This document shows positions 14,701-60,189 of a DNA stretch of 64,000 nt, piece after piece. The notes beneath the pieces were generated by a model, which worked only from the letters and a program-made list of their open reading frames with translations, did not search any database and was not told the DNA's origin. Made by a program: the position numbers and the translations under genes. Where the stretch lies: positions 10,629,001 to 10,693,000 of the forward strand of contig NC_092563.1 in NCBI RefSeq assembly GCF_037975245.1, given 5' to 3'. The stretch is from Apostichopus japonicus. Lineage: Eukaryota > Echinodermata > Holothuroidea > Aspidochirotida > Stichopodidae. Each line of letters opens with the position of its first letter. Positions within the stretch are counted from its first letter, which is position 1.

Positions 14701-15778
14701 AGTCCATAAAAACTCGTGCACAGAAAATAGATGCATTTTGAGAACGAGGCGCCCAGGCCGAATATAAAATATTCAAAGGCTACTACTGATGAAGCTCCTC
14801 CTATCAAGTTTGAGAGCAGAAACCGGTCTAGTTGGTCATAAGAGCCTACGCTAGTCTCTCCTACTATTAACAGTACACTCAATTCACCTTATAGGTGCAA
14901 TTATGTTTCACCATGAGGAGCATGCTATAAGTTCATGTTCCTCGGGCCCTCCCTTAAAAATACTTCATGTTCTTGGCGACTACGTTACGTTAGATAGTGT
15001 TAAACCGCCTACACCCCCCCCTTCAGTTGAAAGACTCAACACAAGGGTGTTACAATTGGTGAGTCCAGTATTGTAAGGGAAGGGATGGAGGGCAACTGGA
15101 AGATTACTCCTCTATAATGTATTTCAGCTTTTAGATATATCACGTATGTTATTCAGCTAAAGTTTTATGCGCGACATAGGGAGGGGTGCAGTGGCGTAGC
15201 TAGGATTTTTTGAGGGGGGGCCATGGGGGGCTGTTCTTTCTTGTGGGGGGGGGGCCGGAGGTTACTATCTAAGCGGAGCCCTACCTTGGTTGGCGCGGAG
15301 CGTACAGAGAAAATTTGAGATTTCAGCACCCCCCCAGATCGCAGGAGATGGCACCTGTGAGGAAAAATAGCAACCAAAAAGATGTGCAACTTTGGTGACA
15401 GAAATGCAAAAAAAGTTTTTTTCTCTTTCATGCTGACTGGCCTTGCCAACTCAGCCAGACTTTTAACTTGAGGGAAGTTGGCATCATATGTCGTTTCAAG
15501 GTGTCAAGGCCTTTCTCCCAACTCAAACCCCTGTGGGCTACCGGTAGGTTTGCAGGATATGCCCACATGTGGACTTAAATAGCATTAGAGGAAGGGGATG
15601 GAAGACTAACACGCATCGATGTTTCGGTAATGGTCCACATTGGTGGCTCGGTGCTAATTAGGCCATTTATTGGGTTTCTTGAGGCAGCTGTCATCAGAAT
15701 CTGGGTTTTTGTGCCAATCGATGACCGATAACATGTATTGGTATGTAAATTTCTTCTTCATATATCTAGCAACACTCT

Positions 15779-15998
15779 AAAAACAAATGAGTGGATTTCA
15801 TTCCATTGGAGTGATCACTCGGCGCACTTCAAATTAAGAGTGAAATTTAACTCTATTGGAGTTAACCCTCACTCCTAATATGAGTGAATATGACTCTATT
15901 AGGAGTTAAGATTTACTCCAATGGAGTGGAAATTCACTCTTACACCGGAATGTGCTCAGTGATCACTCCCATGGAGTGAAATTCACCTATGTTTTTAT
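15779..15998. mobile_element. Palindromic MITE, about 220 bp
   Basis: The left arm runs from AAAACAAATGAGTGGATTTC to a GTGATCAC block; the right arm has the mirrored GTGATCAC block, CCATGGAGTGAAATTCAC and a final GTTTTT. The middle is built from repeats of GAGTGAA, ACTCC and GGAGT, which also pair across the centre. Almost the whole unit can fold on itself. No clear target duplication could be fixed. Confidence 0.75.
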
Positions 15999-16286
15999 CA
16001 GTACAGTACAGTGCATATCATCATAGACGTACGTACGTACGTACTACGTACGTTCGTATATCAGACGCACTCGATACCCACGATACGATACGGTCCTGGA
16101 GAAACAATTTCCACTCATCATGTTTTAAGGCGATACAGTAGTGAGTAGTGAACAGGCACAGCCGCATGTTTGCAGGAATTTCAGAATTCCCAATATTTTA
16201 TATCTCTACCACTGGTAGTGGAAAATCATGTTTCGACAGTTTCGTGGGCATAAAAAAGTGTTTTTGTGGAATATTCAATGACATTT

Positions 16287-16982
16287 CAGGGGCGGATGCA
16301 GGATTTGTGACGGGGGGGGGGGGGGTCTGACCCGTCCAGCCGCGCCTGAACTTAAGACTATCTAAGCGGAGCGCCATCATCGGTTGGCGCGGAGCGTACA
16401 AGCTTTACAAACCCCCAGATGGCCGGAAACGGCACTTCCCGAGTATTCTAAGCTGCATGTACCTAGCCTGAAAATATGGATCTCATGTCTGCAATTTCTC
16501 AATTGATGAGAAAAAACAATCTATGAAATATGGTATTACACTGTATCAGATGAGTTGAGATGATACAAAAATCATAATGCTTTTAGCCCCCAATACCCTC
16601 CCGTTCCGTCACCACTGTTTGATGCAGGGCCGGATCCAGGATTCTGGAAGGGTGAGGGGTTTGCTCATGAAAAATTCGTTAGCGCATCCTAGCAGCCTAC
16701 CGCTCTGTAACCTCACCGCCCAAAAAAATTCGAACACCACCTCAATTTTGAAACTTTTTGGTCTGAAAATTGAGATTGTTAGGCATTTTTGGCACGTGTA
16801 GCACGCGTGCACACTATAGTTCATTTCACGGAAAAGACACACCTGGCTGACTTGTGAGGATAACCGCTTTTCTGACGTCCTACATGTTTAAAATTGGCGT
16901 TTAATTTAATTATTTTTTTCTCTCTCTCTCTTTTTTTTTCTCTTATTTTTGGCCAAGAGCGACCCCCCTGGATCCGCGCCTG
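16287..16982. mobile_element. hAT-like TIR element copy A (CAGGGGCGGATGCAGG family)
   Basis: Starts CAGGGGCGGATGCAGGATTT and ends CCTGGATCCGCGCCTG, its imperfect complement. A second copy of the same family lies at 53848-54482; the two share the poly-G run, the hairpin module, 'gatgagttgagatgatac', 'gcagggccggatccagg' and 'acatgtttaaaattggcg'. Both have an internal, terminus-like GCAGGGCCGGATCCAGG (16626 and 54088), so the ancestor was already composite. No exact target duplication is seen. Confidence 0.8.
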
Positions 16983-17594
16983 CATATATTCAATTTGACT
17001 CGAGGCAATATATGAATACCTGATACCTCGGCTCAGTACAAACGGAGCCAATCTTTTGATAGATTGTTGCGCTAGGTGGAAGCACTGAACATATTTTCAG
17101 CAGATATCGATATCGCGCAGCACAACAAGCTAGGTTCGTGGTGTATGGTCGCAATCTTCGCATCGACCATTGCCATGCCATGCTGTGTGACCATTCTCAT
17201 GATTACTACAGATATTGTATTATTCTTATTCTGCCAGATGCAGACGAGAAAATTGTGTAACACTATTTCCCAAATTATTGAACAAAAAATATTAGTGAAT
17301 CGCACTTATTTTTATTATTTTTTTTACAACATTTTTTTTTACCCCATTCCCAGTGGGGGGGGGGGCAGTGGGGGGGGGGGCCAGCCGATTTCATTGGGGG
17401 CCTCGGCTCCCCCAGGCCCCCCCCCCGTAGGTAAGCCACTGGAGGGGTGGTAATTGCAGGCATGTCTATGCTTGAGCGATTGTCAAGGATGTCAATTTTT
17501 CACGCAACTTTTTTCGAACTCACTTGATTGAGGGGCCCCGCTCCATTGCCGGGCCCAGGGCCCGGTGATCTCTTAAGACGGCCCTGAACGTAAG

Positions 17595-19220
17595 GTCTCC
17601 AAAGGGGTCCGGTATAGGTTGTATGTTAATCTTTTTGGGCTACCACGTGGCTAATATGTATAGTTGCCTTCTTTTCAAACTAAGTGAAATAATGACCAAT
17701 ATGCTTACTGAAACTCTCATTTTCGAAGTCTCAAATTATTGTTGCTTCAACTTGGACAAACTGGGACGTTCCCAAGTTTGTAAACGCGCTCTCGTAACCT
17801 ACTTCGATAATCCATGTTTATCGATAGACATACATCGCAGGTTTAATTCTCAGACTAACTTAGAGAATATTGTGGTCGTTCTCCAGAGGTCGATATCCAT
17901 CCAATTATTTTGCTGATGTCATTATCTTCACTGGCCTCTGTTGATGTCCTCTTCAGATCACCGATCCACCCAAAGCCCACCTACCCCCTCCCTTGGAGTA
18001 TCTTCCTCCTTAATTGGTGACCCTGTCATGTTCTTTCCCAGTGATACTAAACTGAATATTAGCGGCCAACTGAGCAGGTTCTATCCCCGCCACAGTATTC
18101 TCCCCGTTCGCTCGACTACATCAGTTGGTGCCAAACCCTCTTTAGTTTTACTTCTAAGGGACACCCTCTCCTTTCTCACCGAATCGACTTGCAGTAAACT
18201 CCTCCACATTGTTTTCTACCGCACTTCGTCGCCGTATAAATGTAAACGAAGAGAATGTCTTCTTCAATCCACGTTTGGTCGCCGGGAAAGCGCATCTGCA
18301 TCGCTATTAATTCCCGGGCAGTAGCGAATTTCCAAAAACGTAACATTTCAAGGTATCGGGAACACAGCAAAACGAACATTGCAAACATAACAATATGCGG
18401 TTTTTAAACTCATATTACTTCTCTGAAATACGTAAGGGATTCCGTACCATCCGGTATCATACCAAAGCAATGGTGTGATCAAAGGAGCAGGGTGGGGGGG
18501 GGGGCATGAAAAGTCTTCCTTTCGCCGGCAAGGGCTCGAACCAACGATCTACCCGTTGCTACGTTTCATTGTTCTAATGCCACCGACTGCCACCGATATT
18601 GATAATAACTGCCCTCAAGTTGTCAAATTTAGTTTTTCCAGGTCAATTTCTCATCCAACACAACCTGCAGATATTCGTATGACGCCACTCTCTCCACAAC
18701 TCTGTCCCCAATGTTAACATGATCCAGTGAAAGTGTGGGTTTAGGGGAGGATGGTTTAACTACTAGGTGGACGAAAGGAACATCCTTAACGGAGGAGATG
18801 AACATCTACTGGGGACCAACATCCTGTGTGGCAATTTGCTCAAGTTTCAAACCTTAAAACAGGGAATACTTCAGATTTGCTCAAAGTTTTGGCAATCTTC
18901 TATACCGCCTGTTTTCATTAGAAGTGTAGTAAGTAATGCTATTAGTAGCATCCATAGTGCATACTACCATGGACTGTAGGTGTTCTTGTTTTGTGGAATC
19001 ACTCTTTTTAAATTAAATATAACATCAATAATGACAGGCATTTTAATTGTTTACTCACATCTTTGCAACGTCTGCGCATATATCCTGAGATTTTTTCTTT
19101 ATCTTTATTAAGGTAAATCCAGAGTAAGACAAATTGATTAGGCCCTTGATTGCCTGATGTTCATGTTCTTTACAAAACGACAGTGTAGGCTATTTGTTTG
19201 CACTTCAAATGTTTGAATCC
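17595..19220. other. Gene-free stretch
   Basis: Open stretches at 17623-17916 and 17941-18324 (plus) and 18176-18388 (minus, followed by a donor-like GTGAGA) resemble no protein I know and lack supporting partner exons. A B-box-like 'gggctcgaacc' at 18530-18540 lacks the rest of a tRNA. Runs of G occur at 18493-18502. I make no gene call. Confidence 0.4.
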
Positions 19221-19610
19221 ACACAAGCTAGTACAGGAATGTACACAAAGCATATAAATTATATAAAAGTCAATTTCTAGCTGAAAACATTAGCCCACAC
19301 CTATGTATGTCCTGTGATGTTAATGTATTCAGTGACAGAGATAGAAAGAAGATAGGTTAAACAATACACAAGCTAGTACAGGAATGTATACATGAAGCAT
19401 AGAAATGATATAAAATTCAATTTCTAGCTGAAAACATTAGCCCACACCTATGTATGTCCTGTGATGTTAATGTATTCAGTGACAGAGATAGAAAGAAGAT
19501 AGGTTAAACAATACACAAGCTAGTACAGGAATGTATACATGAAGCATATAGAAATGATATAAAATTCAATTTCTAGCTGAAAACATTAGCCCACACCTAT
19601 GTATGTCATA
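19221..19610. repeat. 146-bp tandem repeat, about 2.7 copies
   Basis: Units begin with 'acacaagctagtacagga' at 19221, 19367 and 19513. Each contains 'caatttctagctgaaaac' and 'cccacacctatgtatgtc'; the third stops at about 19607. The copies are about 95% alike. Confidence 0.92.
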
Positions 19611-21493
19611 TCTCTAAAAAGAAAAAAGGTCTGTGTAGAGGCAATTGTCACCACTTTGTGATGAATTTAATTCTATTTCATATTTGAAGCCAAATGTTAG
19701 ACTGTCTAACATGTTATCCATGTACAATTCTTGATCAACTGATATTATATCCGAAGTATAGTGTGTTCACTGATGTTGAAAATATCATTTGTCTACAACC
19801 ATTTTTTTTTTACTTTCACTGAACATATATTGAAATATAACATGATTTGTTTAACATTGATCCGAATAGTTTATTGTGTTTTCTGGTGTTTGTGTTGAGA
19901 AAAAGACTGAAATTAAGACCACAATAATTCAGAAGCCGTTATGCACCTTTCAGTAAATTCCCCTGTATTAACAGATCATGTAGTTTAGTTTTACCAAAAT
20001 ATAGTTATATTTATTAAAAGTGGTGTAAATCACCGAAGCTGGAAACCCCATTTGAAGCCTTTCCTCTCGCTCTTTATCTTGTGAATTTCCAATAATACAC
20101 ACCCAATACTTTACGCGAACGTATAGCACTATTTAACATTTTCAAGTGTTTGTTAAATGTTTCATTTAGATGTTGGAGTCCCGTTAACCAAAAGAATGAA
20201 ATAGTGTAATATATTTTAACGCTTCTAATTGATTTACTCGAGTCAAAGGCAGCTCGTGACACATTATTAATACAATAACGGTAGGATCCTGCTAATCTCA
20301 AAACAATTAGAAAATTCTGCCTCCACTCTCTGGAGACTACTCACAAGATGACATTCAACCGACCAGAGGGTGATTATTAATTCCTGTACCATGAAATGGG
20401 ATGATGAATTAAGTAATAGCCCGTTTATACCTGTACATATAAAAAGAGACCTGTTCACGGCAACGTTACCCGCAGAATAGAATGGTTAAATATTATATTT
20501 TCTTGTGTTTGCTATCTCACTGTATCTACTGACCATAAGAACTTGCTAAACAGACCATTAGACCGACATTAAAATCTTAACCTTCGACTATTTCGTGATT
20601 TTCGTCTACCGTTTGAAGTATTATAGTCGTAGTCACCACTTTGTACAGCAAAAGTGCCCTATAAATATGTTAAATAAAAATTTCGACATTTCTTCGCAAT
20701 TTCGACTTTTTCAAAATATCCACTGCACAGTCTCGCATCAATTTATATTGAATCGTTTTTGCATTGCAAATGTTCTACTATTTTGTCGCACAATGTCGAA
20801 TTTTCTTAAAAGTTTGAGTTTTCTTTTTCTTTGAAGTTTGTAACTTTAAGGCAAAATTTCCGCAGTTGGGAAATTTTGTTTTTTTGTGGATGTAGAGAAA
20901 AGGGCCGGAATGCGTCGGATACACTTAATGATGATTTGATAATTTTGATGGTCTGGAACTCGTTTTGCTAGTACAAAGAATCCGGTGGAATGATGCTTGT
21001 ACTGACACGGAGTGCATGCCGATAGTTGCAAAGTAGGAAGGGGAAGGACAGATACTCCTTACTCCCAAACTTTCCAAAATGGGGTAAGGGAAGCTTCCCA
21101 TCTGCCCCTGTACCCACGCGAATGATTACACATGCGTCATGAAGCAGGTAGTCGATATGAAACGTGTCAAGATTGGTGATAAACTCATACTTCTAATTGT
21201 ATACGCGTTTACCATCCTGAGCGGGGAAGAGAACAATTCAATAGGATTGGAATCCAAATTGTTTTTTAGCTTGAATGTTTCAACGTAGCAACAATACCCG
21301 CACATCGCGGTAGCCAGCTGTTGAGCATACTGGTTACTAATACTTCGGTGCCGTGGTGTAATTACCATAGATCTGTTTCTGTATGTGCACGATGTAGCAG
21401 ACTCGCCCGAAGTACATCATGTAATACGTAATTGAACCAAGGAGTTCCATATTACTACCTGATTGAACTAGGTTATTCTCCATCTGTGGTATA
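19611..21493. other. Upstream region of the ENPP-like gene
   Basis: No supported exon. The sequence is AT-rich with many short open frames in all phases. The promoter of the ENPP-like gene should lie in its right part, but I see no clear TATA box or initiator. The nearest upstream in-frame context of the ATG at 21494 is 'gtggtataatg'. Confidence 0.4.
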
Positions 21494-24400
21494 ATGACGA
21501 TGTTGTTCACACTGAGTAAACTGGATCTACGTAGGCTTCTATGCCTTCTACTGATGGTAACCGGTGTAAAGCTTACCAGGAATACGTATCGAGAGGAACT
21601 ATTATTGCTGGTTTCTTTCGACGGATTTCGCTGGGACTATCTGGAAAGGGATTTAACGCCTACTCTCAATGATCTGGCAAAACATGGAAGTCGCGGAGGG
21701 TACATTATAAATCCGTTTGCGACCAAAACTTTACCCAGCCACTTCACAACTGTTACGGGTCTCTACGAAGAATCTCATGGACTAGTAGGGACAAAAATGT
21801 ATGATCCTGTACTAAACGAGACGTTTCACAGAAACAACACCTCAATCGAGTGGTGGAGTCAGACTGGTCAAGAGCCTATCTGGATAACTAACCAGAGACA
21901 GGGAGGTAGCAGCGCCGTTATCGAGTATCCCGGTATGGACGTGTCTTTTGGCGGTATGAGGCCAGATTATGAATATTCCCATTTCAGTTACTCCGTACCT
22001 TTTGATAAAAGAAGTGATTTTGCTGTATCTTTACTTGCCAATGGGAGCATCAATTTTGCAGCTATCTACTTTCATGAGCCGGACCTAACCGGTCACCAAC
22101 ATGGACCAGATTCTTTTGAAATGAATGACACGTTAAAACTGTGCGATAATACTGTAAAACATTTGATGAAGGAATTAAAAAAGGTCAATTTGCTCCATGA
22201 AGTGAATATCATTTTTACTTCAGACCATGGCATGATTTCAGTAGATAAAAGCAGAACGATTTACGCAGAGAATTATCTGAATGATACGATATATCCACAC
22301 TTCACTACCGAAGACAACCCGGTTCTCTCGATTTGGCCAAGGAAGGGTAAGTTCGGTACTATTTACTGTCATTGAATGCTGATGGAATGTCATGGTCCGA
22401 GACAATTCAATGTCCAGGCTACTCTGAGTCCAAGTTCCAGTCCAGGCTATCTCCATATTACTGAAGGCGCTTCCCCCGCCCTATGCTCATGTAACATCAT
22501 TTGATGTGTTTATTTGGGGAGGTTGTGGTGGGAAGGGGGTGGGGTATATATACAAACTGCTATAGACAGTGGAACATACAGTATGTCACTGATTTACGGA
22601 AGCAAACCACAAATACGCCTCAATATGGCACTATTTAGAAAACAAGAGGGCAAATACTGGAAAAGGGTAGTGTTCTTTTACAAAAACCGATCACTTGTCA
22701 TTTATGAAATGGGGTACTTATGAGGTATTCACAAAACAGAGGGGTACATGCTACTCAGCAATTGCTCCTGATTGTGTCGCACAGACAGAATACGGTTTGA
22801 AGGAATTTTGATGTCAGAGTATGATGGCCTGTCTGTAACGATCTGCCGTGTATGGAATAGTTTAGGTGCCATAGAAAAGTTATTACATTAAAAGTTTTGT
22901 AGATGTTATAGTGGCCCAGTGCTGCATGGGCTTTCTCAAGAATTCACCGAGGGGGGGGGGGGGGATGTGGGGGCACAATTTAAAGACCTTTAAAGACTTT
23001 TACCCACATAGCTTATATTACAAAATATACATGTCAGAACAGTATGACATTCTTTTGGAATTTATACATGTACAGTAGTATATATCTCAGAATCTGCTGG
23101 ATGTCCAGGAGAGCATGCCAGAAGCTGCAGCAAGTTTAGACATTTGCAAACTCTCAATGCTTCTGTCAAAATTTAGAAGTTTAATCTCTAAATTTTTACT
23201 ATTAGTTTCAAAATTGTAAACTAATAGCTGATAATTTAGCTGCCAACTGTACGTTGTTCTTTGAAAATACAAAGCAATCAAGCTGAATGATTCAGCAATT
23301 AATGCTGTGGTGGCAGAGACCTGATCTTGCCCAACCCACCTTTTCCTCTGCCTATTCCTGGTTCTGCCTCTAAAGAGATACATGTATCCAACACTCTACT
23401 CAAACCTACAGCATATCATTTATATTCCCAAGTGAGAGTTGTTATGCTCCAAGGACTATACCTGAATTAGCACATTATGACAGTCATTACTGTCCCTCCG
23501 ATGTTAAAAACATTGTGTCAGGTAAAGACAGTATGCCGAAATGGGACTGTACATTACAGTACGTCACCTGACACCAGTGGCGTAGCCAGACTTTTCCATC
23601 TGGGGGGGCAAAGGGGGGGGCGAAGGGTCTAATTGGTGGGGCAGACTAAGCTAGTACAAAAGACATACCAAACAGTTTGCATGACAAACTGTGGCAAATC
23701 GGGTATTGTGTCAGCAATGTAGGGTACATATGGTCACTCTAGTTACAGTAGCTGACGTTTTATGTTATTTCCACATAGGTATTATTAACGATAAAACAGA
23801 TCACTGAAAAATTCATCGATAATTCTCTTTAAAAATCTGAATAGACTAAGCTCTTTCTGTCATGTATTCAAAGATGATCAGCATGATATCTGACTTGCCT
23901 GGGAGTGTAACCCCCCCCCCCCCCCCCAATCAACAAAAGATGTTATCATTCCCCCTCCGGGCCCTTCTTTTGCACTTTCTATGGCTCACTCAAACAGTCT
24001 AGCGAAGGTTAATTCGCCTATTCTGATGACTGTCTGCGAACTTATCGACGAATTTCGCGCCCTATTACTGATAACGTGACCATATTTTCGTGACTGAAAT
24101 CGGGAACATTTATTGCGTGGCTGATATGGGGGAGGGGTTTAAGGGGTCCCTTCACCTTTATAACAACAATGAGATCCTTGGAAAATTTTCAAGTGCCTAA
24201 GGTGCTTAGATGTAAAATGGTGATACTTTGAAGCACTTTTTAAATCAATTTTATTTTCAAAAATGTAGCTTTTTCTTAAATGAAATCCACTTACTTTACG
24301 TGGTTCTTTGAGAGCTTGTGATTTGCTCATGCTCACACTATAAGTGTCGTTGTGTCGCCGTAGTTGCCATTTATACGGTCGAAAGAGTGCTAGGCTAGAT

Positions 24401-27400
24401 CGATGTAGCATATTTTTAACAGTGTTTCCACTTTACACTGGCCCACCTGAAATACTGGTTATAAGTTCCATTCTGCGACTGCACACTTGACTAAATTTTG
24501 TTTTTACAATTATTTTAATAATAATGTGGGATATTTTCGAAATTCCTGAACATTTTGACGAATCGGGGACATTTTCGGGGGCACTTGTTCATCGGGGACA
24601 GCACACTGTAATCGGGGACTGTCCCCGAAAATCGGGGACGTCTGGTCACCTCGGACCTATGAGCTCACTACGGAAACACAAACGTATATAGACTACTAGG
24701 CTGTTCTGTGTTGAATGTACCTAACCCAAGAAACACCTCGCGATTGGTCGCGTAGGCGTAGCAAAACATGTTGTAAGTTTCAGTCAAATTGCAAATTGTT
24801 TCTAAATACTGTGATATTCATTCTGCCATGCACGTCACTCACGTGTGAATCATTTTGGAACACAATCCAGGGACCAGGGATAATCATGTGAACATAAACT
24901 GAACGAAGCCTCCGCTTGTGAGTGCCGCGGAGACCGTTTAATTAAATTGCCAACCCGTTTCCACATTTGACAATACAGAGACAGTGGCGTTTTTTGCGCT
25001 GCTGCTTGGGTCAAATTCTTTTTCAAGGCAATTTTCCCATGGAAAAGATTTTTATTTTGGCCACACAATTTCGCAGATAGAGAATTAGGTAAAAGGTAAA
25101 GAATAAAAATTGCATAAAAACCATGGTAATATGCACATAGGCCCAGCAACATATTTAGTGTGCATTCAAGTTTTTTTTTCTCAGTCAATAATTCCATTTG
25201 GGGGGGGGGCAAGTGGGGGGCGAGCACTTCAACTGGGGGGGGGGCTCCCGCCCCCTGCCCCCCCCCCCCCGCTGGCTACGCCACTGCCTGACACAGTGGC
25301 CCTGACAAGTTCTTTTGGAGTGACTAATAACTTGTTATCAAGACTTATATTTGAGGAGTTATAACTCTTTTGTTAGAAACACTGTTCCCAGTTGATTAAT
25401 CTGAACTTCTATGTGGTTGACTGACAACATATACTAACTAGTTTATTATTTCAAATGGCCTAAGCCTATTCCAAAACATATCCCACATCGGCTCTTGTAG
25501 AAAGAGGCTGCCGCGGGAAATAATGTACATAAGCAATGCTTCTAAACTGCACTACTGTAGATGTAGTTTGTTCATACTATAATGATAAGGAGTATATAGC
25601 TTAAACAGGGAGCTGCTACTCTTAGAGTAACAGCTCCGTGGTTGAAACATGACTTTTTTACACACAGAGACATTGCGATATTATGAACAGATCATTAACA
25701 ATGTTCCTGATGATCAAGGATTACAATATTGTGAAGTCAATTGTTTCCCTCGAACTCTTTAATTTAGTCCTCGTGCAAGCCAGTTTGGATACGAACATGA
25801 GCCTGCAGTTCAGATGCTTTAATGGTGGCGACCAAGGCAAGCTAAAGGACCATAATGGCTGTATACCATTGGCAGTAACAAGGAAGGGGTGGGGATTATA
25901 TCATGATGCTTTGCCCTGACTGTCCCCCCCCCCCCCATTACGTCCAAACTTCCTTCATTTGGATAAAATTAGGCTAACAAAATGCTATACTGTCCTGGAA
26001 CTTGGTACCCTGAATCCGACAGGAGTTTGAAACACGTTCCAATGAATTTGTAATCTACAGAATTTCTGCACTTAACTAATGAGACAGCAAAACTGCAGTG
26101 CGGTCTGGATGATGCTACATGAATAATCTTATATAGAATATGACACACTAGGCTGAAGTGTATAGCAGGATGAACAACATACTTCAATCTTAGTAGTACA
26201 ACAAAAAGCCTTAAGATCTGACAAACAGTATTCACATTGGCATCTGATGACCGAGATGGAAACTAGCTTTTCCTGTATTCAGCATACAGATTGGTCTCTA
26301 CCAAAGACAACAGGCTTCTTACACCTACGAGCTGTACATTAAGCAGAAGCAAGGCGATTGTTACCTCCTTGTCCCCAAGATTTTGCACCTGGTTTGCCTC
26401 TAAAACATCTAACAAGGCGACAATTAATTTTAGCAAATGGTGACTGGTCATTTCCCCAACGTTTCTACATCCAAACCTGAAGTTTTAATTTGGCACTGAA
26501 TCTTGACAATTGCAAAATACGACGGAAAAGTTCAACAACGGAAGCAAAAATATGAGCATGATATTAAGCACATGTACAAACAGTACAAACCGTATGTTTC
26601 ATTACACACCTGTGTGAACAGGCATGTATGCAGTTAGCGTCACAAAAGTCAATGGAGATTTGTTCGAGACTTCTTGATTCATATCTAAGGATGCCCTTAA
26701 GCTAATTTCCAATTACCAGCCTCTCCTATTTTTCATGAGGCATAACGCACATGTTATATAACAGGCTGGTCGGTGGGAGATACAATAGATGCCACAATTT
26801 GACCCCTGGTGACTCAAAATGACATTTGACCTCCACAAAAGAACAATGGACTTCTTGTACTTAACGACGTGTCACAACTGTATAATAAATATGAGATTGG
26901 TCCAAGCTTCCCTTCTTGAGATATTGTGTTTACAAGGTTTTCACAATTTGACCTAGTGACCCCAAATTACCTTGACCTCCACCAAAAACAATAGGGGTCT
27001 TGCTCAAAGTTACATGTCACAACTAAATACTAAATATGAGATTGGTCCAAGCTTCCCTTCTTGAGATATCGTGTTAACAATGTTTCCCAATTTGACCCCT
27101 GGTGACTCCAAATGACATTTGCTCTCCACAAGAAACAATAGACTAGGGCCCTAAGATACATTCCAGAGACATGTATTTGTAATTCCTCATTCTGACATGT
27201 AATTTTGCCCTAGAGAATGCTAAAAATGCAATCAAGAACCATCTTAAAGCGCTGCAGCTTCTCTTGGGAGCACTGCATTCCCAGCCAATACAGAGTGTAC
27301 AGTTGCCTCTTTTGTTGGCTAAGTTTGGCAAACTTTACTCAGCTAGTCATGCTGCAGTCTGTCGAATAAAATCCAAGTTCCTCTTGAACAAGAGCTCAAT

Positions 27401-29279
27401 GGGCACTGTGGCTCCTTGCTTAGTAGAATAGTAAACTGTTGTATGTCATCACCCAATATCATAACCAACAACTACATTCAAAGTTTGGAAAATCTGATTT
27501 AAGGTTGTGGAGTTATTGCAATTTTAAAATTTTGGCCCCTCCCCAACAACTTTCAACAGATAAAATTTGGCACCTAAATGGTCCTAAACATATTTGGCCC
27601 AATTATAGTGGCTCAAAACTATATTGCCCCCCCCCCCCCCCTTCAAACCTTTTACATTTAATGCCTTATGTCATTTCTGTCCCCCAATTGTCAGGGATGC
27701 GATCTCATTGTTGTTATAAAGGTGAACGGACCTTTGAGAAATTGAGGGTGCTTAAATGTGAAATGTTGCATTTTAGTTTAAAACTTTGACATAATGTTGA
27801 AGCATAGGAAGATTTAGTTTCTTCCTGGCAAACCATGTTGATCCAACTTTCGTTTGTCCCGCAGAGTCTCATGTTGAACCATTGTACCAATCACTGAAGT
27901 CAGCACCACATGTAACGGTTTACAAGAAAGATGAAATACCAGATGGATACCATTACAAGAACAACATCCGTGTTGCACCAATTGTGGCTGTGGCAGATGA
28001 AGGATGGATGTTGGTAGCTAAAAACTGGGATCCTTGGCAACTCTCATGTAAGATATTGTTGCCTTAGATAACGATTGGGTAAACATATGACAAAATTTAC
28101 TTCCAAATATTTTAATATGTAGGCTACTGGAATACAGTAGCCTATTCAAATTGCACTCAACATCTGTTATTCAACCGGAGAGCACCTTCTAATCCATTGC
28201 TTGATATGTGGGTAAAGTTGGACAACATTCAACTAGCATGTCTGGCAAATTAATATGAAACAGTGTCATAAGTAACTATGTAAATATTAATGTATATATT
28301 CCTGGTAGTGCACCATAGATGCTCTCGAAACTGGTCTTTCATGACAATTTCTGTTATTATCTGTATCTTTCCCAGATAAAGGTAACCATGGTTTCAACAA
28401 TTCTTTGAATAGCATGTTTGGATTTTTTATTGCACACGGGCCAGCTTTCAAGAAGGGAGGACTTGTGGATTCCTTCCCCAGTGTTGATATTTACCCCTTG
28501 ATGTGTCATATCTTGGACATTAAACCAAATTCCAACAATGGCACTATGGCAATAGTAAGCATGCTTCTGCGTACGTCTCCTTCAAGTTGGAAAGTCTTGG
28601 TACTTGGTAAGTATGTCATAATTTACCAACGTTACACACATTTTCCTGTGTCTGTTTTTGAAAAACTAAATGCCCAGGACTTATCAAATCTCAAGGCAGC
28701 ATACTGGTCATATCAAATCCGAACCACACCTGAAGTTCGGGTTTTGACTTACTCCATTGTCCACCGACTTCGGGATCATTGCAATCATTCATTAAAGCCT
28801 GTGTCATAGCTGGCATTTACTGTTACCTGGTAGAAGCACTTTAATAGTATCTTCAGTTATATTTTATCCAGGTAATTGTCAATTAACTTCACTCCTCTCT
28901 TACGTGTCTCTGTTCTACCTATGCACTTAATCTACCTAGCCAACAACAGTTGGTAACATTTTATCACTGTGCCCCCACTGACCTACTTTAGGGTCAACAC
29001 CTACTTCCTCTTCCTTCCAGATCTACCATTCTAAAGACTTACAACTATTTTTCTAGTGTGATTTACATCTATTGGAATCTTGTTTGTTTTACAATTTATG
29101 GTGAAGGCAGCAACTGATAAGGACCTGTATTCAAGATAACATCACTTGTATTAAGCACTGATAAGAATCATGTTAAATTTGGCATTTTATTTTGTTGCTC
29201 ATTAAGTTTATTATAGATTTTTCAACATGCCTGTCTATGTTTTATTTTTTTTACAGGTACCAGTTGTGCAAACTCTTAG
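21494..29279 (+). CDS. ENPP5: ENPP4/5-like ectonucleotide pyrophosphatase/phosphodiesterase (complete, 4 exons, 429 residues)
   Basis: Exons: 21494-22346, 27865-28047, 28376-28606 and 29257-29279. All introns are GT-AG with phase 1, and the stop is TAG at 29277. A Leu-rich segment at residues 12-25 is a probable signal peptide. The NPP phosphodiesterase fold is intact. Metal and catalytic residues are Asp43 (SFDGFRWDY), nucleophile Thr79 (ATKTLPSH), Asp197 and His201 (EPDLTGHQHG), Asp244 and His245 (TSDHGM) and His366 (AHGPAF). ADEGW in exon 2 and DIYPLMCHIL in exon 3 are ENPP4/5-like signatures. Somatomedin-B and nuclease-like domains are absent, as in ENPP4 and ENPP5. The family hydrolyses nucleotide or dinucleotide phosphodiesters outside the cell. 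Several N-glycosylation sequons are present (such as NETF and NNTS). Oddity: vertebrate ENPP4/5 end in a transmembrane helix, but the tiny last exon adds only seven residues and no helix, so this form looks secreted. Reading through the third donor would add about 67 residues and stop at 28807-28809. Intron 1 holds a hAT-like element and a DR1-bearing repeat. The exact paralogue (4 or 5) is uncertain. Confidence 0.92.
23567..25294. mobile_element. hAT-like element, 1712 bp, in ENPP intron 1, with perfect 8-bp target duplication
   Basis: The element 23575-25286 starts CAGTGGCGTAGCCAG and ends CTGGCTACGCCACTG, a perfect inverted repeat. It is flanked by CCTGACAC at 23567-23574 and 25287-25294. 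G-rich and C-rich runs lie just inside the ends. The interior includes several copies of 'atcggggac' (24562-24640) and a block at 24152-24240 related, in inverted orientation, to 27697-27790. No transposase is seen; an open minus-strand stretch at 24850-25227 is proline-rich only because of the C-run and is not credible as a gene. Confidence 0.93.
26040..27135. repeat. Dispersed repeat with tandem DR1-bearing units, copy 2
   Basis: Same family as 12880-13590. From about 26796 it is tandem with a unit of about 147 bp: 'aatttgacc' recurs at 26798, 26945 and 27089, and 'attggtccaagcttcccttc' at 26894 and 27041. The half-site pair TGACATTTGACCT lies at 26820-26832. It lies in ENPP intron 1. Confidence 0.8.
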
Positions 29280-29859
29280 TTGTCGTTACTCATTAGTACT
29301 GTACATGCTTTATATATTCATATACATATGTACTGTATAGTGTATTGTATAAGCTTGTGTCTTTGTCTGGAGCTTTTACTTAAAACCAGGGCGATATTCA
29401 TGCCCAGTCTCTTTGAGTTTGACATCGTGCTTGGTAATCCCTCAGGATAAGTTTCTTGTACAAAAGAATTAAGGACTGTGAGTTGTTATAAGACCCCTTC
29501 CTTGCCTCGAAGGCTTCATTGGCAGAAGCTCTGTCTTTGTGTAAAAGTTGCAGACTTTCCTGTAACATATTCTTACAGATCATTTTTTACATGCCATGGT
29601 GTATGTTCATACTTCGAGAACTCATGGTTTTCATTTTTCTGTCAGGCTATAGTTTGGCCCTGGTGGTTTAACTTGCAGACATCCTTTTAAATCTTGGTTA
29701 GGCCTCAACCCACTAGTCGGGTTGACTCCTTGGTCTAGGCCCATTGCTTTGAGACCGACCATAGTCTTGACCTCAGACCTTGGAGACGTTAGAGTTCTCA
29801 TTTTTCTATTAGTCTTCTCACTTTTCTGCTTCATTTTTTCTCAAATACAAAAAGGACAA
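29280..29859. other. Downstream of the ENPP-like stop codon
   Basis: This stretch presumably includes the 3' UTR. I found no canonical AATAAA close to the stop; AT-rich 'tttatatattcatatacat' follows at about 29310. No other feature is visible before the DIRS-like remnant. Confidence 0.35.
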
Positions 29860-31670: not shown

Positions 31671-31775
31671 TTTTTTAGTTTGTGTGCCCACATAACCCCC
31701 TACCCTAGGGATACAGGAGGGTAGATCTGTAAAGAAGAGAAAGTCAGTGTATTCCCTGTTATGTGAAATACAGGC

Positions 31776-31918
31776 GCAGTACTAGAACGCTAGCAGTACT
31801 AGAACACTAGAACGCTAGCAGCACTAGGGCGCTAGCAGCACTAGGGCGCTAGCAGCACTAGGGCGCTAGCAGCACTAGGGCGCTAGCAGTACTAGAACGC
31901 TAGCAGTACTAGAACGCT
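31776..31918. repeat. 17-bp minisatellite
   Basis: About eight units of a 17-mer (gctagcagcactagggc and the variant gctagcagtactagaac). The G/C-rich variant forms a block in the middle, with the A-rich variant on both sides. Confidence 0.92.
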
Positions 31919-36075: not shown

Positions 36076-36303
36076 CAGGCCCGTACGGAGAGGGTGGGGG
36101 CAGTGATGACATTTTCAAGGTCAGGGAAGTATCTTCCAGCTACCTCAGGGTTGTTATTAGCAAACAAAAATATGTTGGTGCTCATCACAGATAGTGTCAC
36201 CTTCTTTACAAGACCCCTCCCCATGACACGAATTGATAACTTACCATCCCACCCCTCCCCGCCCCCCCTCCTCCTTGCACACAGACATCTGTGTACGGGC
36301 CTG
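36076..36303. mobile_element. Short TIR element, 228 bp
   Basis: Starts CAGGCCCGTACGGAG and ends CTGTGTACGGGCCTG, complementary at 12 of 15 positions. The ends resemble the hAT-like termini elsewhere in the window. The 8-mers next to it (ATAGGTGT and AGTGTTGT) match only at 5 of 8 positions, so the target duplication is not proven. Confidence 0.6.
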
Positions 36304-40175: not shown

Positions 40176-40288
40176 AGTAACATCTATTTCTACGCTACGC
40201 GCCACAGGTTGGCGCGTAGCGTAATGGAGAAAATTTTGAAAAAATGCCTCCCAGATTGCAGGAAATGGCACTTCCCGAGCTTGAAAAC
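40176..40288 (+). repeat. Hairpin module copy with a perfect 14-bp stem
   Basis: The arms TACGCTACGCGCCA (40191-40204) and TGGCGCGTAGCGTA (40210-40223) enclose a 5-base loop. They are followed by 'gagaaaattttgaaaaaatg', 'cctcccagattgcaggaaat' and 'ggcacttcccgagcttgaaa'. It is the longest stem of the seven module copies in the window. Confidence 0.85.
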
Positions 40289-40683
40289 AAGACCCCTGCC
40301 ATGCCAGAGTAGTCACATTTAGCCTACTTGCCGTCGTCATTATTGAAAAATATACCTCCCAGATGCGTTCTCCCTTGTCTGTTTTTGTACCCGATTAATC
40401 TTCTGAAACACATTTTTTAAGTATGTTTCATTTTGGTTCTTTATTTTTTGCCATTTTTTTCTTCTTAGTCCTACTTTTTTTTTTTTTGCGCCGTGAATAT
40501 TGGTCCGGCTTTCGCCGGACCTGCCCCGACGCCCCTGTAATAGGCCTAGCCAAAAAGGTTCGGTATCATTCACAATGATGAGGAAAAGGACCCCCTTTAG
40601 GAAACGTACAAGTTTATGCCGTTTCCGTACAATTCGGTAGGAAATGGAGGACGTCTTTTGCACGGTATGACGCACTTCTCTCA

Positions 40684-41079
40684 TATTATGAATAACGAAC
40701 CTTTTTTTCTCATTATGAATAACGGACCCTTCGCTCCATTATGAATATCGGATCTTTCTTCCTATTATGAATAATGAACCTTTTTGTCTATTAAATTACG
40801 AACCCCTTGTTCTATTATGAATATCGAACCCTTTGTTCTATTATGAATAACGAACCTATTTGTAAATTATGATATCGAACCGTTTTGCCCATTATGAATA
40901 TCGAACCTTTGTTTCCATTATGAATACCGGACCTTATGAATTATGATCCCTTTTTATTAAGAATAACGAACCTTTATTTCCATTATTAATAGCGAACCTT
41001 TTTATCGAAAAAATGCACGTTATGAATAACGAACCTTATGAACAATGACCCTTATGAATAGCGGACCTTATGAATATCG
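40684..41079. repeat. Minisatellite of about 27 bp (ATTATGAATAACGAACC)
   Basis: About 14 degenerate units built on 'attatgaatancgnacctttttgt'. Unit length varies between about 13 and 28 bp, and the last units are shortened. 'Aacgaacc' and 'tatcggacc' variants alternate. Confidence 0.9.
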
Positions 41080-52400: not shown

Positions 52401-55400
52401 GATGCCACCCAGATGTGAAGTTGTAATCTATAAAACCCTTGCAGGCTTCTCCCACATTCATGGTCGTAAAAATAACTGCCTCATGGCTTTTCTTTATTAA
52501 TTGGTCGCATCAGCATTATAATGTATGGGTAAGGAATATACTGTACACTAATCCTGTTTGACAGTAGTACTCTACTAGTAGTGATACTGGTTGTTTCTTC
52601 TCAACTTAATTCTTCCTCTACGTTAGGGTTTATCACTAAACAACTACAGGGGTATTTCAATATCATAGGACTTTGGAAGTGAGATTATTGCTGAATTGAT
52701 ATACAATATAGATGGTAAGCCAGTGCTCTGTTTATCAGCTTCATCGAACATCAGTTGGAACTTGAGCTAACTCTTAGCAGTGTTAGTATAATATTAGTAG
52801 CCTAGTCAGAGACCTAGTTCTAATAAAGTTGTGCTATTAGGCCTAGTCAGAGTGAGTTTGTGAAGATGATGGTCTCTGATACCTAGTGTAGTATTATGTG
52901 TGACGATAGGCTAGGTTTTGCACTTTTATTGTTGTCACTAGTCGCACTGACGTTCAGTTGTTCTTTGAGAAAGGAGAGCTTCATGGTACTAAATGCATTA
53001 AAGTACATTCTCTCAATGGTTTGTTTGAAATCTGTCTTCAACGGATAAATTTTGGATACTTTCAATCAATAATTTCTTCATTGACGACATGTTTTTGGCA
53101 AAATTAGCTTGGTGAAACATTCTCTGATAGGCGGCTTATACGAAGTTCCATTTTTGAAATTGAACAGTTTTATGTATTTCCTTTTTCGAAATGCACAGAA
53201 TCACTAACAGTAAGACCATCACCAGCATGATAAGTGAATGCATTCAGATACAAAATCCCTGATATTTTATTCCTTTTGTTCCGGGACCTATACCTAAATT
53301 AAGCAAATAGCAATGGCAGCAAATTTAGCATATTAAATGCTCCAGTCCTAAAGACTGTGAATCATTATCGTGAACATTTGGAACACTTATTTGCAATTTG
53401 AAAACTTTACACTGAAAATAACTAACTAGTATTTGGTTAAAAGCAGTGTTCATATTTTTGTATTTGTGCTTGAAAGTGTCAGTTCTAGCAATTTATATCA
53501 TTACCAAATTTTTTACCAATTACTTTTAATATGTTCATATATTTATAGACATTAAAGTACCCTGTATTGGCCCAAATATGCTAGATATTCATGGTCACCT
53601 TCGGTCAAAATTCTTGAATTGTTTTTATTACAACCTTGGAAAAATTTTCCTCACTGGGACATTCAGTCATCTTGTGTGTTCCTCGAAATTGTCTGAGAAC
53701 GATTTGGCAAGTAAAGACCTCTAGAAGGAAAGTACATTTTGAAAACTAGCAATTATAGTGTGCCATAGTTTGGGGCCTATACTGACTACCTTTAGAAACT
53801 CGTAAACACAAGTCAAGCGTTGCTGAACTTTATTGTGTACCACACATCAGGGGCGGATGCAGGATTTGTGACAGGGGGGGGGGTCCGACTGGTCCAGCCA
53901 TGCTTGAACGTAAGACTATCTCAGCGGAGCGCCACCATCGGTTGGCACGGAACGTACCAGAGAATTTTTGGCTTTACAAACAATCTATGAAATATGGTAA
54001 TACATATCAGATGAGTTGAGATGATACAAAAATCATAATGCCTTTAGCCCCCAATCCGCCTCCCGTTCCGTCACCACTGTTTGATGCAGGGCCGGATCCA
54101 GGCTTCTGGAAGGGTGAGGGGTTTAGCCTCCAGGGGTTTAGCCATGCAAAGCACCTACAAAAACTCACTCAAAATGGATCTGTATCAGTACGAGTTCCTA
54201 TGCAGCCTACCGCTCTGCCACCTCACCGCCCAAAAAAATTCAAACACCACCTCAATTTTGAAACTTTTCGGTCTGAAAATTGAGATTTTTAGGCATTTTT
54301 AGCACGTGTAGCAAGCGTGCACACTATAGTTCATTTGACGGAAAGACACACCTGGCTGACTTGTAAGGATAACCGCCCTTCTGACGTCCTACATGTTTAA
54401 AATTGGCGTTTAATTTTTTTTGGGGGGGCCAAGAGCAGGGGGGTCCGGACCCCCTGGACACCCCCCTCTGGATCCGCGCCTGCACATATGTTTGATAAAA
54501 ATTGACATACATGTATTGATCCATTGCCTTTGTTAAGTAAAGACTGTTCAGATGTTTAAGACAGTTATTATTCTAAGAAGCTTCATTTCTCAGTGTTAGC
54601 ATCACAAGTGCTAAGGACATGGTTCAAGGCAGAACAATGTGTCTGTTATGATGCTTACAGGGCAAAGAGAAAGTACCTTGACAAGCCTGGGGTGATATGT
54701 TGTCCAAACAAATCTCAAAATTCTCCATGGGGGAGGGCTACTGTAGATACAGTATACCAATAGATTATGGTCGTGTCTATTGGCACGACCGTTATTGTTA
54801 CGTTGACGTACCAATAAGCATCGATATTCGCACGAACATGCTCGTGCTTATAGACAGTGACTTTGCACACGAAGGAGTTCCAATAAGGATTGTTATTCAC
54901 ACGAACGTGTATGTGGGTAGGCATGTAGTGATCATGTAGTGATTAGAAAAGCACTGCCAATAAACATTTATATTCGCACCAACGTGTTCTTACTGAGTAG
55001 GCGGGGAAGGTAAACCATGGCCCCAACCACAGTGTTGGGTGTGCACGGTCGATTTGCCCCCCCCCCCCCCCCCCCTGTCGCCCCCCCCTCAAGATATTGG
55101 TTGATGAAAATTTGCTGATTCTCAAAAAATGGTTATCTTTTTCAAAATCAATAGCCAAATCTGTCAAATGTGAGAGAAATCAAGTAAAGAGGAGTCCTTT
55201 ATTACAAAAATTGAAAAAGTATCCGCAGATAAACTTTGAACATAACCCTGGAAATCCCCAAAGTTATCAAATTCCTGTTCCATTGTCATGCACTGCAGTG
55301 TTATTGTCCATCGATGTCCTGTTCATCCCTCCCGGCCAGCACATATCAGGACAGTTCATTGGTTACATCAACCACAAGCGCTGATTGGTCACGTTACATG

Positions 55401-57276: not shown

Positions 57277-57611
57277 CATAGGCGTACGAGGCGGGGGGGG
57301 GGGGGAGGCTGCCCCCAAATCTCCAGAGAACAAGAAATTCGGGCAAAAAGCCTGAAAAAATCGGGCAGCCTAAGAGGAAAATATATATATATATATATTG
57401 CGTAGGATTCGGGAAATAAATTAAGAACCGGGTAGTATCGCGTCGGGCGGGTACCTTCGTTATTGCTGTTATCTTCGACCACATGGAAGCCTAACACCAC
57501 ACTAAGTCAATGGGAAATCTGCCTAACCGTCGATTTGCCATTTTTTTTCAATCACACTTTGCGTAGGATTCGGGTAATAAATTAGGAACCGGGTAGTATC
57601 GCGTCGGGCGG
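57277..57611. mobile_element. Partial hAT-like terminus and internal direct repeat
   Basis: CATAGGCGTACGAGGCGG at 57277 matches the terminus class of the elements at 9509 and 58510 and is followed by the usual G-run. A 54-bp direct repeat (57399-57452 and 57558-57611, 'gcgtaggattcggg' to 'cgtcgggcgggta') lies just inside. The matching right end was not found, so the copy is truncated or disrupted. Confidence 0.6.
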
Positions 57612-57643
57612 GTAACCGGGTACCCGGATAACCCGTGCAAACA

Positions 57644-57645
<2 letters not shown>

Positions 57646-57697
<52 letters not shown>

Positions 57698-57810
57698 TAT
57701 ATAAGAAGAAGGGAGAGAAAAAGGGGAGAGAAAAAAAGAGAAGAAAAAGGGAAAAAAGAGGGGGGAAAGAGGAGGAGGAGGAGGAGGAGAGGAAGGAAGG
57801 GAAAAGAAAA
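57646..57810. repeat. (TA)n microsatellite followed by an unbroken 108-base purine run
   Basis: 57646-57702 is (TA)n with one GTA interruption. 57703-57810 contains only A and G, with a (GGA)n block at about 57769-57788, and stays purine-rich to about 57850. Open frames on either strand here are low-complexity artefacts. Confidence 0.95.
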
Positions 57811-58267
57811 CGAAGAAAGAGAGAAAACGGAGGGAAGGAGAAAAAGAAAACTGCCAAGACACCGGGAAGAGAAAGAGGAACAGTGACATCATTACAGCGC
57901 TGATCCCTATTATTTACACATGGCCGGGTAGCTAGTGACGGACTGTCGAAGACTTCGGAAGGGGCGTGCGCCTCACCCTACCCCTTACACCGACAACTCC
58001 ATTTTTGTCGTTTCCATTTTTTACTCTCTCACTAATGTATCTATAAAAAATACTATATATGGTTTATCATAACGTGTGTGTGTGTATGGACGCTTTAAAC
58101 AATTGTGCTATAAAACAACAAATTGTGGCTGGTCTCGAACTCGACCGAGTCGTCGCATTTCGGGAAGGGGGCGACCGCCCCCCCCCCCCGAGCATTTTTT
58201 TATTTTTATGATACCGCTAGTAATTTCAACTTAAATAGAAAATGCTTAGATGCAACTAACAGGGCAC

Positions 58268-58362
58268 ATGGGAGGTGTCATTTCCAGCGATCTGGGAGGC
58301 ATTTTCGGGCAAAATTTTCTTGTACGCTTAGCGCCAACTTGAGGCGCTACGCTAAGGTAGTT
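58268..58362 (-). repeat. Hairpin module copy on the minus strand
   Basis: Reverse complement of the module: TAGCGCC / GGCGCTA arms, then 'gtacaagaaaattttgcccg', 'gcctcccagatcgctgg' and 'aaatgacacctcccatgtg'. The stem differs in sequence from the other copies but still pairs. Confidence 0.8.
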
Positions 58363-58501
58363 TGCCTATAGGCTTCGCCCCTCCCTTGGCAAATTATTCG
58401 CTGCGCACCTGTTCGAATTTGTAAAGCAAACAGCAGATATCCGCATATCAGTGAGCATGGAAATGGCGGTTCCAGGATGAACAGCCTCAAAACTGTCGAT
58501 G

Positions 58502-58804
58502 TGTGAAGTCATAGGAACCCAATTTGATTCGGGTGGCTGTAACGACCTGCCCGATAAATATAACCTAAATTTTTCGCGCGCTCCGCGCGCGTGCAACAAT
58601 ACAATGTAAAAATATCATATAAGCAAGCATCGGTTATTACATCGCATACCATCGTGTACCGTGCGGTACGTGGAAATTGCACAGTATACCGCGGGATGCT
58701 AATGTAAACAACGAAATGTCTTATGTAGATGGAGAAATAGCAATTTATTTTTCTTTCAATAGGAACCCCCCCCCCCCCCCGCCTCATACGCCTATGTGTG
58801 TAGT
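58502..58804. mobile_element. Small hAT-like MITE, 287 bp, with an empty-site counterpart
   Basis: The element 58510-58796 starts CATAGGAACCC and ends CATACGCCTATG. Flanking 8-mers are TGTGAAGT (58502-58509) and TGTGTAGT (58797-58804), 7 of 8 identical. The inverted paralogue at 60235-60385 runs through the same site without the insert (reads CTGTCTATGTGTGTAGTG on the minus strand). This directly shows the borders and the target duplication. Inside is the CGCGCGCTCCGCGCGCG palindrome also present, in part, near 10110. Confidence 0.88.
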
Positions 58805-58880
58805 GTTCGGTTTCGGAAATATCTGGTATTATTTCATTTCCTTCAACCAAGTTTTATAATGGCCGTTATAAGAGGGTTTA

Positions 58881-59030
58881 CAGGGGCGTATCCAGGATTT
58901 TCTAACCCGGGGGGCGCGAATTACTATCTAATCGGAGCGCCACCATCGGTTGGCGCGCAGCATACAAGAAAATTTCTGGTTTTGATACCCCCAGATCACC
59001 GGAAATGGCACTTCTCGGGCTTGAAAAATG
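58881..59030 (+). mobile_element. hAT-like left terminus (CAGGGGCGTATCCAGG) with a hairpin module
   Basis: CAGGGGCGTATCCAGGATTT at 58881 is followed by a G/C-rich run and a module copy at 58922-59030 with the perfect stem GCGCCA/TGGCGC. Its right partner may be the terminus at 60890-60906, but no target duplication links the two, so its extent is unknown. Confidence 0.6.
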
Positions 59031-59419
59031 ACCAACCAGGTGTACACTTTTGCATAGGAACCAAATAATTTTTTTTCATCAATAACCTTTTTTAAGATTT
59101 TCACCAGTCACACATCATGTTTGACCTCATCGCATCTCCTGTGGGTCATTGCTTTTGTAGGTGATTCTACGTCGCGGACCACAATACCCGTCAGCCCCAC
59201 TTTTTAAGGTTTTAAGCCAATTATTTGTTCAGAATTTGAAAATTCACATTTCTCGTGAAATAAATTCACTTAAAATCATACCAATAATGTTGCACAAATT
59301 TTCATCTATGGACAACCAATATAGTAAAATAAACCTCTTCAATCCCTAACATACCGGTCAAAATTGCACAGGTAGAGGGAAGTATGTGTAAGAATTTGGT
59401 CAGGGACAGTCGGTTAATT

Positions 59420-60189
59420 TATTGGTGCATGGGCGCAGTGCAGTCGTGGATAATGATGGGGAGGCTTGTCTGTTCTCTGATACTATCTAAGCGAAGCGCG
59501 ACCACGGGTTCGCGCGTTGCGTACAAGAATTTTTTGGGCAAATATATACCTCCTAGATCGCCGGAAATAACACTTCCCAGACCCAATGTACTCCCAATCC
59601 TCCTCAAATGTTAGATCTCATGGGTTAGAAATTTAGTTTGGGGAAATGCAAAGGCGTCTGCAGAAAAAAATCAGGAGACAAATAATTCAGGTAGACTTTT
59701 GTATACGATGGGTCTGGAGTCCTCTCCCAGAAAACAATTATAGACTGCCGCAAATGCGATTTCCGTCCTATATTTAACAACTGTGGATAAATATAATAAA
59801 CTGAGAACCGTACGTGAATCTAGCTCAAATTGGCAACACACAGTGTGAGTTGTTAACGATTGTTTTGTTCGCACTCAGTCCGTTTTGCTGACCACAATTT
59901 ACCAGTCTCGTGTATAGATTATGTTTCACATGATTTAATGTGTTAATACTTCAGCGGAGAAGTCACGCTTAACAGTGTCAATAGTAATAATTCTCGTCTT
60001 TTATAGTATATCATTTGCACAATTCTGGATCAATTGAACTGCGCCAAAGTTCAATACAAGGGGATTTTAAATGCAACGTTTGGTCAAGACAACTTGGTTG
60101 GGACACGATATATCATGTCCCCACCACTGAAAAAGTTGGTGGGGACGCGTCCCGCTGTCCCCGCCAGAATCTGCGCCCATGTATTGGTG
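59420..60189. mobile_element. hAT-like element, 754 bp, with perfect 8-bp target duplication
   Basis: The element 59428-60181 starts CATGGGCGCAG and ends CTGCGCCCATG. It is flanked by TATTGGTG at 59420-59427 and 60182-60189. It carries a module copy at 59481-59580 whose stem is GCGCGA/TCGCGC, a paired change relative to the usual GCGCCA/TGGCGC. No transposase. Confidence 0.92.

Follow-up and report, generated by a model that had tools for sequence, protein, structure and literature searches.

A hairpin-bearing core beneath many different transposon ends in Apostichopus japonicus

How does one short sequence come to lie beneath the ends of transposons that otherwise look different? The question is raised by a 64,000-nucleotide stretch of the Apostichopus japonicus genome (contig NC_092563.1, C3 in our numbering, positions 10,629,001-10,693,000; the whole stretch is called the window here), in which a hairpin module of about 100 bp had been recognized by inspection in seven copies. 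All seven were found again by homology, with blastn and with a covariance model (CM). The idea that transposons with different ends have this module in common is borne out, with many end types ("caps") and two lengths of target-site duplication. The core to which the module belongs is longer than first noted: about 95 bp are well conserved, and weaker similarity continues to about +150 in several families. From sequence comparison, it is very probable that a common core has been exchanged between caps.

Every stretch has blastn matches to several of the other six, and not every pair was found; the copy at 53915 has no blastn match to those at 40176 or 58268, and it keeps only the first half of the module, as originally described. 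With the CM, which was trained on 24 rows including three window copies, the seven are the best matches in the window (E 1.3e-23 to 1.3e-10). A hidden Markov model (HMM) built from the seven found no match in reversed sequences at E<=1. In the genome searched (671.6 Mb, 35 contigs), a 27-mer from the right half of the module with up to three mismatches occurs at 11,579 sites, an exact degenerate 23-mer at 4,347, and an exact degenerate pattern for a TAGAT variant at 2,887. The reversed controls gave zero sites, and an artefact caused by low complexity or by a palindrome was therefore rejected. The best scores in 20 regular 5-kb samples (100 kb) are only E 0.12 (HMM, L020) and 0.21 (CM, L032), and so the window is unusually rich in copies. 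Module copies are common in the genome, with the window above average. A search of a plasmid collection gave no match, as expected.

One core beneath different ends

Element ends were read in three sets of 20 loci, plus the window copies and incidental copies. The first set was picked by subtype from 100 listed places within one mismatch, the second came from 100 listed exact places with the CACCGG class left out, and the third was picked for variety from 100 listed TAGAT-type places. The loci that were read fall into 15 to 17 cap types: A, CAGGGGCGTATCC; A', CAKGGGCGGCGAT; B, CAGGCGCGTAGCC, with its variant Bp, CAGGCGCCTTGCGA; C, CAGGCGCGGCGGAAC; D, CAGGGRCGGGATTTG; E, CAGGGGCGGATGC; F, CCATACTGGAAAGTAC; G, CAGGGGCGTCGGAAGC; H, CAGTGGCGTAGCTAGG; I, CATAGGCGTACGG; J, CATGGGCGTCAGC; K, CAGTGGCGGAGCTAGG; M, CAGTGGCGGAGATTTC; N, CATGGGCGGCGATCC, which is close to A'; O, CATGGGCGCAG; and P, CAGGGCCT. 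Types J, M, N, and O are represented by single copies and P by two, and 16 of the 20 loci in the third set are K. Mapped relative to element ends, the module begins near one of them, at a distance of 41-95 bp from the start of the cap, in the 15 types for which this was measured. Element D (L040, L041) also carries two extra, diverged module copies (876-957, 1068-1156) with TATACGTC in front instead of a cap.

Two comparisons that bear on exchange concern A with A' and C with D and E. Over 583-603 alignment columns beginning immediately 5' of ACTATC, the interiors of A and A' are 86-88% identical, while their caps differ at both ends (beyond CAGGGGCG) and their duplications are 5 and 8 bp, respectively. 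Because these interiors match between different cap pairs, the core appears to move between caps. Similarly, positions 1-95 of C, D, and E agree at 95-97% beneath unrelated caps. Simple common descent in one hAT lineage, with gradual divergence of the ends around a conserved interior that includes the module, would account for the resemblance among most caps (CAGNGGCG plus a G-run). Nevertheless, the likeness of A to A' and of C, D, and E to one another beneath different caps means that gradual end divergence does not explain the caps; moreover, F has a quite different, non-CAG end (CCATACTGG), and we consider this account improbable. That the module is the conserved interior of one element family, the outcome that the original prediction had named against itself, is likewise not what was found, given the two duplication lengths, the F end, and A versus A'. 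The two possibilities first offered, a shared subterminal site and a module moving between elements, are both still live, and both may be true.

The same module is carried by elements with 5-bp and by elements with 8-bp duplications. Lengths were obtained for A, A', B, E, F, G, H, I, K, and O (C, D, J, M, N, and P fall outside this set) and are 5 bp, the hAT5 trait, in A, G, and E and 8 bp, the length of the hAT superfamily, in A', B, F, H, I, K, and O. Element A has exact 5-bp duplications in five of nine copies (L009, AACAC; L010, ATGAT; L011, GATTT; L006, ATTGT; C2:7831250, CTATA); in the other four, L012 has one mismatch, C1:10812365 reads 6 bp, a TA repeat surrounds C16:35323301, and the right end of L008 was not found. 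G is exact in four of nine (L060, L063, L064, L066), with one mismatch in L061 and L065, no right end found in L062 and L088, and L071 repeating the flanks of L066 as a duplicate locus. E is exact in one of two (CACAT at 53848, one mismatch at 16287). For the first 10 B-type loci, exact 8-bp duplications were read in L033, L035, L036, L037, and L038, one position is off in L044, and L034, L043, L045, and L046 are unreadable or unmatched; in the second set, three of 13 B-type loci are exact (L075, L087, L092), L078 is one off, and the rest are unreadable, cut, or unclear. F is exact at 8 bp in four of seven (L053-L056), one off in L057 and L059, and ambiguous in L058. The two I copies (L082, L086) and two K copies (L134, L135) examined have exact 8-bp duplications, as does the single O copy (TATTGGTG). 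H is exact in L068 (CAATAGAA) and matches at 6/8 in L069, and A' is exact in one of two (ATTGCCAT in L116/L154; 6/8 in L047/L155). Two duplication lengths around one core imply that different transposases would have mobilized it.

The border at which caps meet the core is abrupt on one side. Upstream of ACTATC, mean pairwise identity is 0.24-0.36 (5-base windows, 14 families) versus 1.00 for the first five module bases, in a comparison that leaves out G, whose left arm diverges, and includes C, D, and E, which are close relatives in the core. By eye, the core has a ragged right side, on which weak similarity persists to about +150 in C, D, E, F, I, J, O, and P, ending near GATCTCATG...AATTT, and A, G, and H depart earlier. 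In L092, L089, and L074, ACTATC or its surroundings are repeated around a 20- to 30-bp insert just 5' of the hairpin, which suggests rearrangement at the module start.

A left border sharp to one base, together with a hairpin that, on the opposite strand, precedes a fixed end by about 10-14 nt, is also what might be expected if the core were itself an inserted mobile element, similar to a short interspersed element, a small nuclear RNA, or a Helitron, that entered many transposons. Against this stand the orientation of the core, whose ACTATC side faces a nearby cap in the 15 types measured, and its ragged right side; we regard such an origin as very unlikely. Helitrons have TC...CTRR ends and make no target duplication. 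A Helitron is not supported here, since the elements have inverted repeats and duplications and the opposite-strand end of the core is ATAG and not CTRR.

The hairpin, its fold, and a putative role in cis

Family comparisons started from 111 matches, of which 94 remained after duplicate contexts were removed; seven of the 94 were truncated or rearranged and were left out of the family alignment. The first hairpin has two 14-base arms that are in register across 22 family sequences, with breaks in some (e.g., D2, D3). Its inner six pairs, GCGCCA/TGGCGC, are nearly invariant, and outside them lie A.G, variable N.N', and G.A positions that are all Watson-Crick only in G. The original prediction had emphasized base changes that preserve the stem. 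Double changes do exist, although they are few, and the inner stem is mostly invariant. They fall in five of the 14 arm pairs (13 cells in 24 rows), with eight of the 13 cells at the single position N.N'; row Gw is misaligned in the loop of this alignment, which slightly lowers the pair counts. Only two lie in the inner stem, one in family O (the 59481 copy) and one in the nested copy of L007. Many single-copy stem changes look, by eye, like CpG decay, and positions 1-95 hold six to eight CpGs in the seven families counted.

Statistical support for covariation is mixed. No shuffle in 500 reached the observed covariation score, a test that is inflated by related rows, and slid registers score lower; the covariation term from RNAalifold is near zero. 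The perfect stem of G (40176) combines a left arm that differs from those of other families with a right arm equal to that of I and J, and this looks like the pattern expected if one arm had been rewritten from the other. A second stem, in the variable middle of the core, has halves that match better within their own family than after swapping between families (p 0.022 for pairing and 0.015 for energy, 11 families), and it fails in G, H, O, and, by eye, P. A rerun with nine families gave p 0.009-0.012; it is not independent support because the failing families had been removed first. When eight sequences were folded against shuffles, G had a z of -4.1 and the others z from -0.3 to -1.7. Selection on the fold is possible but not established.

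These data bear on the proposal that transcription of the core yields a structured RNA (a stem, a single-stranded AAAATTTTGG, and a second and third stem) that the elements exploit. The presence of the first hairpin in nearly all families and the fit of second-stem halves within families speak for it, and the linker resembles what we take to be an Sm-type site. Conversely, the second stem fails in the four families named above, one of eight folds is far better than its shuffles, the RNAalifold term is close to zero, and no Rfam family (Rfam 15) reaches the gathering score over the window modules, with no convincing weaker match; around the E and G copies, Rfam returned only subthreshold, chance-level matches. 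A structured RNA is a quite unlikely explanation, and roles such as nuclear retention, protein binding, or evasion of small RNAs share that low standing. An RNA polymerase III box promoter was considered, by eye only, and is unsupported.

We propose instead that the module is the left edge of a core common to many nonautonomous, mostly hAT-like DNA transposons. New families would form when outer caps (the terminal inverted repeat plus 40-95 bp) are swapped around this core, with the breakpoint directly 5' of the hairpin, at ACTATC, and the core would be mobilized by different transposases that leave 5-bp or 8-bp duplications. The first ~95 bp may work in cis near one end, most likely as a binding or enhancer site for a transposase or host factor or, alternatively, as a foldback that aids end pairing or escape from silencing. 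Exchange could occur by template switching in gap repair after excision, with the palindrome or microhomology at ACTATC setting the switch point. Taken whole, as a hAT-like core of miniature inverted-repeat transposable elements (MITEs) with caps exchanged at ACTATC and a putative cis-acting first ~95 bp, this reading has in our judgment an even chance of being right.

Conservation bears on the putative role in cis. Between 11 family sequences (55 pairs), identity is 84.1% in positions 1-95 versus 66.7% in 96-150, where the global alignment behind the lower figure was forced and its random floor is high, and some families are represented by only one copy (J and O) or two (D and P). Within families, with G left out, 85 of 3,133 positions in 1-95 differ from the family majority, compared with 39 of 1,810 in 96-150. 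Since 1-95 is better kept between families but not within them (G aside), constraint on these positions is suggested, and they do not appear to be slow to mutate in themselves.

A hairpin at such a border might also act without any function for the core. If it triggered template switching at its base during repair or replication, the core could be copied under many caps as a neutral passenger. Consistent with this idea are the borders at the hairpin base, the G stem with its seemingly rewritten arm, the local duplications or inserts at the module start in L089, L092, L074, and L075, and a hairpin deletion in L073. Conversely, 1-95 varies less between families than 96-150, though within-family decay is alike (G aside), and the ACTATC side faces the cap at a distance of 41-95 bp in all 15 types measured. 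A passenger core is therefore doubtful, although it is the strongest of the rivals considered.

Several points weigh against the cap exchange model with a cis-acting core, in addition to the limits on the between-family comparison. With G kept (39 copies, six families), the within-family counts become 89/3,699 versus 98/2,134, which would weaken the contrast; part 96-150 of G mixes two subtypes. The copies were picked by motifs inside 1-95, and apparent decay there is lowered as a result. The module occurs without a readable cap in some copies (the inner copies of D, L077, and L084), and the breakpoint mechanism is inferred from the sharpness of the border. Also, hAT transposase frames are plentiful in the genome (150 of 633 candidates were scored), and in 20 regions upstream of such frames no module-bearing element could be tied to a transposase and no autonomous partner was found. 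The only module matches there at E<=0.001 are two in L116, from a neighboring reversed A' element; the places of these regions were estimates based on frame length, two pairs are copies of a single element, and few have recognizable ends.

A further possibility, which we judge unlikely, is that the core is a transposase-agnostic hitchhiker, a cis-element of ~95-150 bp that acts via folded DNA or RNA and has repeatedly captured ends from unrelated transposon families. If so, it would enable every new chimera to amplify, and the unit of selection would be the core and not any transposon family.

Carriers of the module in the window

The elements that hold the seven copies are listed in Table 1, together with a weak eighth candidate. 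The copies at 16357 and 53915 belong to one family, E, and those at 58922 and 59481 belong to two different elements. The right limit of H comes from alignment with L068/L109, at 97.9% over 15189-15965 and 91.5% over 16325-17441. The 40176 copy (G), whose left part had been described as diverged, lacks its left end, and matches begin at 40190. The right end of A at 58881 was not found at this locus. Internal module copies of A and H were considered as an intrinsic tandem feature, an idea that was rejected in that they are nested B-like and E MITEs.

Table 1. Module copies and their carrier elements in the window (window coordinates)
Feature	Position	Strand	Basis
Element H, cap CAGTGGCGTAGCTAGG from 15189, interrupted by nested E	15189..17441	+	alignment
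Module copy, left-subterminal in H	15264..15357	+	blastn, covariance model
Element E nested in H, cap CAGGGGCGGATGCAGG, right end GGATCCGCGCCTG	16287..16982	+	5-bp duplication, one mismatch
Module copy of nested E, short deletion after hairpin	16357..16442	+	blastn, covariance model
Possible decayed module copy, weak eighth candidate	36124..36195	-	covariance model, E 0.012 only
Element G, left cap missing, right end CGACGCCCCTG	40190..40537	+	alignment
Module copy of G, 14-bp perfect stem	40190..40288	+	blastn, arm comparison, covariance model
Element E, 5-bp target duplication CACAT	53848..54482	+	element ends
Module copy in E, first half only	53915..53976	+	blastn, covariance model
Reversed A-like interior with gaps, own left part missing, holds nested B-like MITE	57716..58880	-	
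Module copy of nested B-like MITE	58268..58362	-	blastn, covariance model
Element A, cap CAGGGGCGTATCCAGGATTTTC, interrupted by O	58881..60374	+	alignment
Module copy of A, 42 bp inside the left end of the element	58922..59030	+	blastn, covariance model
Element O, CATGGGCGCAG...CTGCGCCCATG, nested in A, 8-bp duplication TATTGGTG	59428..60181	+	
Module copy of O, compensatory stem GCGCGA/TCGCGC	59481..59580	+	blastn, covariance model

The reversed A-like interior aligns at 81.8% over 57716-58742, and pieces of it reach 58880. I-type ends (CATAGGCGTACGAGG ... CCTCATACGCCTATG) at 57277-58796 bracket most of it together with the nested B-like MITE, and no matching target duplication was seen for them. 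Inverted CAGGGGCGTATCCAGG / CCTGGATACGCCCCTG ends, 484 bp apart at 60423-60906, may mark a short relative of A, and tandem units ~84 bp apart at 9548-9886 match the interior of A (~711-801), as if a satellite had grown from it. Elsewhere in the window, a match resembling U2 spliceosomal RNA at 12600-12689 on the minus strand (56.3 bits) is the only one at an Rfam gathering score, and a 293-amino-acid open frame at 21494-22375 presumably resembles an ectonucleotide pyrophosphatase. In other parts of the assembly, COX1 on contig C35 has AAA for asparagine at conserved sites, which is the mitochondrial code of echinoderms. A second contig besides C35, C29 (~14745-31219), holds COX1 pieces in more than one place, possibly as a mitochondrial insertion or an assembly artefact.

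Comparison with known systems

MITE families are usually explained as deletion derivatives, each of one autonomous element. Here, one short core has a one-base-exact border beside a palindrome, 15 to 17 end types, two duplication lengths, and thousands of copies. It is therefore a concrete system for testing how new MITE families form and whether end exchange prefers a palindrome breakpoint, and it also bears on whether several transposases exploit one internal cis-element. An origin of MITEs by abortive gap repair would make chimeric elements through template switching. That model mostly explains shared ends with shortened or new interiors, whereas the present elements have a common interior beneath new ends.

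The inverted repeats of hAT elements start with CAG, as do most caps described here; F (CCATACTGG), I (CATAGG), J, N, and O (CATGGG) do not. The CAG-type ends with 8 bp in B, H, and K are hAT-like, and the 5-bp duplications of A, G, and E recall hAT5, the name for hAT elements with 5-bp duplications (Kapitonov and Jurka 2007, cited in PMC12730594). A core common to both duplication lengths goes unmentioned in the relevant portion of PMC12730594.

Searches of the open-access literature turned up no account of the module, and the sole close precedent that they returned is the CMITEs of Acropora corals. As characterized in the pertinent sections of PMC2872659, these are nonautonomous elements of ~100 bp with different terminal inverted repeats and an inner region, a 75-bp core, that is more conserved than the ends; they have TTAA duplications, CCYT piggyBac-like ends, and an estimated ~1,600 copies in A. 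millepora. A role of the conserved interior in transposition was suggested there and left open. The present elements resemble CMITEs in having a conserved interior beneath different ends (PMC2872659). Unlike them, they lack TTAA duplications and CCYT ends, and their core is one-sided, carries a palindrome, occurs in elements with 5- and with 8-bp duplications, and has 11,579 near-matches to its right half. Compared with that account of CMITEs, the present case extends the kind to two duplication lengths, a one-sided core, a palindrome, and a far higher copy number.

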